NCBI RefSeq assembly: GCF_964204865.1
Contig: NC_135264.1
Coordinates: 6,850,001-6,914,000, forward strand
DNA: 64,000 nt
From: Styela clava
Lineage: Eukaryota > Chordata > Ascidiacea > Stolidobranchia > Styelidae
Direction of reading: 5' to 3'
In this document: positions 6,976 through 8,914 of the stretch, in pieces
Numbering within the stretch: position 1 is the stretch's first letter
How the letters are laid out: each line of letters starts with the position of its first letter
The notes under the pieces: model-generated
Seen by the model: the letters and a program-made list of their open reading frames with translations, nothing else
Told to the model about the DNA's origin: nothing
Databases searched by the model: none
Translations under genes and position numbers: made by a program

Positions 6976-8914
6976 ATGAATTCATACATATACATCGTTC
7001 TTGTAGTTTTATTATGCAGTATGTCAGTCGGTAGTCAAGAAGATACGGGACATTGTACGACGTTTAACGAATGCTGCAAACTACATCAAGCAAGCGGTGA
7101 ACGAGGTGAATTATGTACCAATCAAAAAACAAACCCTCATTTTTTTTCATTACTTTTTTTCCGTACATCTGGAACATTAAACTATTACTCTGTGCGATAT
7201 TTTAAAGTTAGCCGCGTGATTAAGCTTGTCTCGTCGTTAGACGCTATATTATTGCTTTGCTTGTTTTACTTTATAGATTCATTTATTTCGCATATCCTCT
7301 ATCGTTCATAGTCATTGATCAAAGTTAATAATAAAAAATATAAGCTATTTCAATAAACTGTTGTAAATGTAAATTTAAAATCCAGAGTGGTATTATCCGG
7401 ATAGTTGTCGAGAATTACACAAACTCAATTCGCTTTCTTGGAATGAAATCGGAGGAGTTTTCGAAATCTATCCTACCCCGGTTTCAGAAAAGATTGAAGT
7501 TTACTGTGATCTCATGACAGATGGAGGAGGATGGATTGTGAGTTGACTCGTTGCATTGTTATTCAAATACACTTTGTTGCGTACTTTCTATAATGGAAAC
7601 AAAATGAACCCATGGATCTTTTTGTTAATATTATTATTTGTTATTGTATTCTTCTTTGTATTTTCTTGTTGTTGTTGATAATTTTGTTGTGAAAACAAAT
7701 GCTTTTTCCTCAAACTACTGGACTAATTGCATGTTCAGTGGTTAAAGATTTATTATTTTCAGTTATTTTAGAAATTTCCATGGAACTATTTTACACTTTC
7801 AAAAATTGATTTTTATCGCAAGTATAAATATATAAATATACATCTCCAAGCGCATCAGTGATCTGTAATCGATCGGATCAATCTTTTTCAGAAAAGCCAG
7901 CAAACCTAACAAGCCAAAATATATTGTCAAACTAAAACTATCACAAATCTCGTATAATTGGAACTAAATCGATTGTAATATAATTAAAAGTGTAATGTGT
8001 TAACAAAGGTATTTCAACGCCGAATGGATGGCTCTGAAGACTTTTATCGTGGATGGGATGATTATGTAAATGGATTTGGAAATACGGTTGGAGAATTTTG
8101 GCTTGGTGAGTTTTTTTCTATTCACATAAATTGCAACAACCTTGAAATCTTCCAACAAGTTCTTAAAAATACTGCCTACTAAAAGTAGTTAGATATATAT
8201 TACTTCCAGTCCAATTTTACATATTCATATTGGTTCCTGTCATGCAAGCTTTGATGTCAGTGCTCGACGCAATACTCTTGATCATAGTACGAAGCATTCA
8301 AACTACAAGCTGACTGACGATATTCTAACGGTAGCCATGAGGACAACAATTTTAAAATTGCGTATTTATGTTCCTGATATACAATACGAAGCAGGTACAT
8401 TAAATTTTTAGGTTTAGAAAATATCTATCAGATCTTGAAAGGCAAGACGTATGAACTCAGAGTAGACATGGAAGACTGGGAAGGAAACAAAGCCTATGCA
8501 AAATATGGGTATGACTTCAAACATTCAAGTTAATTTAAAATCAAGTTTATATTTGCATGGTTTCATATTATTTATCCTATTATTTCTAGAGCATTCTCGA
8601 TCGGCGATTCTTCAACAAATTATCATTTAACGGTTGGCCAATACAGTGGAAATGCTGGAAATTCTTTAGGAGATTCCATCCATCAAGGGCGACCCTTCAC
8701 AACTAAAGACGCAGATCGTGACACAGCATCTGATAACTGTGCTGTGACTTTTAAGGGAGCGTTCTGGTACGGAGCTTGTCATGCAACAAATTTGAATGGA
8801 CTTTATATCAAAGGAGGAAATGCGAAATATGGAATATCTGTGGTCTGGAAAACTTGGAAAGGCTATGAATACTCTCTGAAGTTTGTTGAAATGAAAATGA
8901 GGCAAAAGCAGTAG
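6976..8914 (+). CDS. Gene C: secreted ficolin-like lectin without collagen stalk
   Basis: Proposed exons: 6976-7105, 7386-7537, 8009-8105, 8412-8508 and 8590-8914, all with GT-AG borders and consistent phases; the spliced frame is open for 266 aa. A signal peptide (residues 1-20) and a Cys-rich segment (C27, C33, C34) lead straight into a full fibrinogen-related domain (about 45-266). That domain has the four expected cysteines, a KDADRD calcium-loop motif and the WYGACH acetyl-pocket motif known from ficolins. There is no Gly-X-Y stalk: the exon ends at an internal donor (GAG|GTGAAT), and the bases beyond it are still recognisably related to the collagen exon of G, H and I. The predicted product is a secreted, probably calcium-dependent recognition lectin. 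A splice acceptor (AACAG) lies 15 bases before the ATG. Confidence 0.82.

Follow-up and report, generated by a model that had tools for sequence, protein, structure and literature searches.

Stalkless ficolin-like genes of Styela clava probably arose by a shift of exon 1 to a latent splice donor together with loss of collagen and neck

How does one branch of an immune lectin family come to lack the stalk that its neighbors carry, with its remaining parts still in frame? The question is posed by a cluster of FReD genes in the ascidian Styela clava (genome 377 Mb), situated in a 64,000-nt stretch (C19:6850001-6914000) that was analyzed as a whole and is referred to here as the window. Its genes form a tandem family of ficolin-like immune lectins: C and F are stalkless, E (minus strand), G, H, and I are stalked, and A, B, and D are fragments. 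E, G, H, and I are the only four places in the window with collagen DNA, and each of these genes combines a signal, a cysteine tail, collagen, and a FReD. Frames are open in C, F, H, and I, and the lesions elsewhere amount to one in-frame TGA in G and a one-base deletion in E. A preliminary description of the locus was right to name G, H, and I as collagen genes, but omitted E, the fourth stalked gene.

Some further contents of the window deserve mention. Fragment B (4099-4248), the remnant of an internally deleted gene, passes directly from leader and ATG to the end of intron 3 and exon 4; fragment A (1308-2463) contains intron 2 sequence of the C/F type, part of it inverted (1308-1499), and is a broken relative of the stalkless branch. 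A YAG some 13-25 nt 5′ of the ATG, present in all seven of C, F, G, H, I, E, and B, is a candidate acceptor, whether for a 5′ UTR intron or for spliced-leader trans-splicing. Rfam and tRNA scans of the window returned no matches. A long open frame at 60695-64000, Gypsy-like by eye, combines protease and reverse transcriptase of retroviral type with integrase-like parts and continues beyond the window.

In the stalked genes of the window, exon 1 encodes a collagen run of about 6-7 Gly-X-Y triplets together with the first part of a neck, and a separate 57-nt neck exon, phase 1 at both ends, is present in all four. Gene G (41784-44411, plus strand) has its collagen at 41952-42057, its neck exon at 42407-42463, and its in-frame TGA in the first FReD exon (43033-43184). 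The exons of gene H (48862-51449, plus; collagen 49030-49135, neck exon 49396-49452) and gene I (56086-58377, plus; collagen 56254-56359, neck exon 56618-56674) are open. In gene E (13995-18429, minus), collagen and the start of the neck lie at 18159-18264, the neck exon at 17581-17637, and the 1-nt deletion in the fourth listed exon (14426-14521). Each of these genes also carries a homologous GT inside exon 1, in phase 1 in all four: at 41920 in G (AAA|GTGAAT, the bar marking the potential exon end), at 48998 in H and 56222 in I (both AAA|GTCAAT), and at 18296-18295 in E (AGA|GTGAGC).

Exon 1 of gene C (6976-7105, plus) encodes a signal peptide and a cysteine tail and ends in phase 1 at GAG|GTGAAT, within GTGAACGAG|GTGAAT; the FReD exon starts at 7386 and is preceded by ..AAAATCCAG. 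The predicted splice from 7105 to 7386 is in frame, yielding an open CDS of 801 nt, five exons, and 266 residues, with FReD exons at 7386-7537, 8009-8105, 8412-8508, and 8590-8914 (PF00147, E 4.1e-71). At the sequence level, the exon end proposed in the preliminary description is borne out. Intron 1 (7106-7385, plus) measures 280 nt and lacks both collagen and neck exon. Its start, 7106-7137, is homologous to sequence that is coding in the stalked paralogs (ESCANQKSKP): over the 32 bases past the donor, 27 match G, 26 match H and I, and 20 match E. In BLASTN comparisons with G, H, and I, homology extends to C position 162 (window 7137), immediately ahead of the first codon for a collagen Gly, and with E to C position 149. 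The proposal that formerly coding sequence now lies in an intron of gene C is upheld by these matches, the same segment being coding in E, G, H, and I and intronic in C. At the far side of the intron, the final ~55 nt can be aligned to the 3′ end of intron sequence from stalked genes. Because the frame of gene C remains open for 206 nt beyond the donor, C alone does not exclude intron retention. Upstream of gene C, two near-identical copies of a roughly 190-nt stretch lie side by side at 6190-6580.

Gene F (35594-37749, plus) is intact and encodes 274 residues. Its first exon (35594-35732) ends at the same GAG|GTGAAT as that of C, and 19 of the first 22 bases past the donor match C; here, read-through is made impossible by an in-frame TGA at 35738-35740, which lies 5 nt behind the donor and would be read as the third codon past it (GGT GAA TGA). 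Judged from its sequence, the FReD exons of F (36126-36277, 36732-36828, 37230-37326, and 37410-37749; PF00147, E 2e-71) would be reachable from the signal peptide only via this donor or some other one. A third stalkless gene, L004 (G000:C19:6840513-6842642, minus), intact and with the same donor, sits 7 kb outside the window. Thus C, F, and L004 all end exon 1 at GAG|GTGAAT, in phase with the FReD exon, and their five-exon frames are fully open. No collagen-like Gly-X-Y region is present in C or F, there being neither a GXY run of at least five nor a collagen DNA match; cysteines are present in the tail of C and F, and a third tail cysteine is absent from C, F, and L004. The branch is left with a signal peptide, a short tail, and a sugar-binding head.

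The stalk and neck have gone together, as the preliminary description held. Searches by tblastn at E values up to 10 did not find the neck exon in the introns of C, F, or L004, and collagen, neck exon, and old donor have left no remnant in any of the three. A fixed-pattern search detected the neck exon in 11 of 28 stalked loci, but its misses are not absences, because it missed gene E (L061), whose neck exon tblastn finds. Between the GT and the FReD exon lie 280 nt in C, 393 nt in F, and 465 nt in L004, whereas the four stalked genes have 953-1307 nt there. For the central part of the C/F intron (about 7138-7290), neither BLASTN nor a profile detected a counterpart in the introns of stalked genes, and plain deletion therefore cannot account for everything. 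Three of four weak profile matches (-2.7, -2.9, and -4.2 bits) exceed the best of 200 shuffles (-5.0), but these fall at the donor and the tail rather than the intron middle; the fourth scores -8.9 bits.

The donor of the stalkless genes was compared with its homologs using a generic donor matrix and a generic U1 sequence. C and F share a score of 8.07 and a U1 duplex energy of -7.0; the homologous GT has 6.28 and -5.4 in E, 3.88 and -2.4 in G, and 0.07 and -1.6 in both H and I. The C/F donor is the best-scoring GT within exon 1 of both genes, and its score is reached by about 1.0% of the GTs in the window. CAG|GTACTA, the donor that normally closes exon 1 in the stalked genes, scores 4.37 on this matrix with a U1 energy of -7.1; by energy, the C/F donor equals this stalked donor, and the internal site of E is weaker (-5.4). 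All 28 stalked exon-1 copies found on C19 (L043 included) keep the GT with A at -1, and all 11 stalkless copies have GAG at -3 to -1. Several elements of the preliminary description can be refined accordingly. The homologous GT does exist in the collagen genes, and phase 1 on every side lets the donor join the FReD exon cleanly; the "weaker context" ascribed to the collagen genes fits G, H, and I, with E being closer to C; and the "new donor" is better described as a latent one, strengthened mainly by A to G at -1. The E-type site, AGA|GTGAGC, recurs in 10 of the 28 stalked copies (L054-L063), where it outscores their own donor on the generic matrix (6.28 versus 4.37), and these copies are the best candidates for a stalkless isoform.

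These counts come from the exon-1 matches listed for C19 (28 stalked and 11 stalkless, with 150 of 265 candidates scored) and represent related copies, not independent events. The 11 stalkless copies are C, one at 6842484 (L004), and nine of F type, and more distant ones may exist. Only three stalkless copies keep the donor GT. In the other eight (L003, L006-L011, and L022), all F-type, GA replaces the donor GT; all eight have, in addition, the same 2-nt insertion within their last exon, and each contains 5-6 stops when the terminal one is counted. The shared insertion and in-frame stops make them look like one dead gene that was amplified. They belong to a tandem array at C19:5.33-6.08 Mb, with a period of roughly 80-100 kb, that also holds the stalked copies L014-L028; each of its units includes a dead F-type gene adjoining stalked genes, and the dead copies span 5.42-6.08 Mb.

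Whether the stalk was lost or gained depends on the state outside the cluster. At six loci from C6, C8, C10, and C18, exon 1 encodes a signal, two cysteines, and a short run of collagen, which in the sixth is four triplets; the donor, read by eye, is phase 1 in the five where it is visible. A collagen-type exon-1 match lies no more than 4 kb upstream of at least 25 of 73 FReD exon matches outside C19, these 73 having been compared with 35 of about 108 off-cluster exon-1 matches. In a DNA tree, the stalkless genes form a clade (support 100/99) and one change of state suffices. With outgroups from the PDB, C and F fall among the stalked genes, although the alternative is not rejected (p-AU 0.112), and with outgroups from the same genome, the stalked C19 genes are a weak clade (55/72). 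The collagen-bearing exon 1 outside C19 and the single change on the tree make loss the better reading and support the polarity that the preliminary description had assumed: the ancestor appears to have had the stalk, and its loss appears to be a single derived change, with the coding state of the intronized segment ancestral under a weakly supported root. The converse, that a stalkless ancestor gave rise to stalked genes that acquired collagen by exonizing intron sequence, draws on that weak root inside C19 and on collagen-less FReD proteins being widespread in invertebrates, as PMC11312191 describes. We consider it very improbable: the same exon of two cysteines, collagen, and phase-1 donor in five loci would need a common origin or repeated gain, and under loss one change is enough.

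We therefore favor, with a probability of about 0.82, the reading that C, F, and L004 are a derived stalkless ficolin-type branch, produced by one ancestral boundary shift with deletion or replacement of collagen and neck. In their common ancestor, a single event would have shifted the boundary of exon 1 upstream by 144 nt, to a latent in-phase GT that the stalked paralogs still keep in poorer context. Alongside this, deletion or replacement would have removed the old donor, the collagen-coding portion of exon 1, the neck exon, and the bulk of the intron. The junction would be frame-neutral because the old donor, the 57-nt neck exon, and the FReD acceptor are all phase 1. A quite different view, in which C and F would be pseudogenes or would start from a different first exon, can appeal to the eight broken F-type copies, but is unlikely: the five-exon frames of C, F, and L004 are open throughout, their FReD parts are constrained, and beyond E, G, H, and I, the window contains no collagen-coding stretch.

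Within the favored reading, the order of events is where the preliminary description went too far. It had the donor change cause the loss of the stalk; the strengthened GT and the passage from coding to intron sequence stand, but with collagen, neck exon, and old donor gone, the data fit just as well with a deletion after which splicing had to fall back on the upstream GT. Deletion before and deletion after the donor change are thus indistinguishable. We give even odds to a deletion that came first and removed the collagen part, old donor, and neck exon, whereupon the nearest upstream in-phase GT was used and later improved. None of the three elements remains, the GT-to-FReD distance is shorter in C, F, and L004 (280-465 versus 953-1307 nt), the 3′ part of the C/F intron aligns behind the stalked neck exon (F versus E, E 1.2e-6), and fragment B illustrates that internal deletions occur here; the intron interior common to C, F, and L004 without stalked counterpart, however, means that insertion or strong divergence would be needed too. 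That A to G at -1 came first, creating a stalkless alternative isoform before collagen and neck decayed and were deleted, is a more tentative proposition. It is helped by the presence of a usable GT there in every one of the 28 stalked copies and by the 10 in which AGA|GTGAGC outscores CAG|GTACTA on the same matrix, but U1 energy favors the old donor (-7.1 versus -5.4), and no intermediate combining strong donor and collagen is seen among the 39 exon-1 copies on C19. An extension of the donor-first order would have stalked genes already making stalkless isoforms via the latent GT, a state then fixed by duplication in C, F, and L004, so that splicing first, and genomic change afterward, turned complement-recruiting lectins into decoys or non-recruiting lectins; this seems rather unlikely.

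What selection has made of the stalkless genes differs between head and tail. Omega for the FReD is 0.29 for C-F, 0.29 for C-L004, and 0.37 for F-L004, and for the tail 1.68, 0.98, and 0.14, respectively: the heads are constrained and the tail follows no clear trend. Relaxed selection on the tail after stalk loss, suggested by C-F, is contradicted by F-L004 and was dropped. In terms of function, the sequence of the stalkless genes predicts a secreted FReD lectin whose cysteine tail is short and which lacks collagen trimerization and the GK-x-GP motif. In the stalked genes, this motif resembles a MASP docking site: all 28 listed copies have VGK[A/T]GP, which is not an exact match but is close to the ficolin MASP motif as given in PMC3179595 and PMC2592599. 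The motif is absent from the stalkless genes, and a family on C8 has PGKIGP, an exact MASP-type motif if the Pro is hydroxylated. The stalkless product is most likely a soluble target binder with no collagen-based recruitment of MASPs.

According to PMC11312191, reports of ficolins with collagen are confined to vertebrates and urochordates. Their order of signal, cysteine tail, collagen, and FReD is that of E, G, H, and I, which add a short neck and whose collagen, at about 6-7 triplets, is very short by comparison; C, F, and L004 differ from ficolins in lacking collagen, third tail cysteine, and neck. The best PDB matches of the C and F FReDs include chains of ficolin-1 to -3, and gene C also matches chains of tachylectin-5A, FIBCD1, and MFAP4, which likewise present a FReD head as a secreted or ectodomain lectin. 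Amphioxus BjFCN1 is collagen-less and reported, in PMC11312191, to work with MASP1/3; on that account, complement activity could survive loss of the stalk. Domain loss by intronization is already known, and collagen-less FReD lectins are common. For instance, in the duplicated family in which Echis PI-SVMP arose from PII-SVMP, PMC4963849 describes how paralog coding sequence became intron and a domain was lost with the remainder in frame, as here. There, an internal exon became intron through loss of both of its sites; in the present case, exon 1 is cut short by a latent donor lying upstream, and the coding sequence downstream of it has physically disappeared. The intronization model in PMC9612004 likewise recruits a pre-existing cryptic site inside coding sequence, but in our case no new intron forms, and an existing one grows at its 5′ end. 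Among the titles listed in searches of open-access literature, none concerned a ficolin losing its stalk in this way.

Relative to other collagen-less FReD lectins, the stalkless state in Styela clava is recent and its stalked sisters persist in the same array, and the route can therefore be read. The result is a legible case in which one branch of a multi-domain immune lectin loses its oligomerization and effector-docking part as stalked sisters survive beside it, and in which the enabling features can be named: a single base, at -1 of a latent donor, and phase-1 modularity. It lets a possible origin of collagen-less ficolins from stalked ones via splice-site choice be tested directly.
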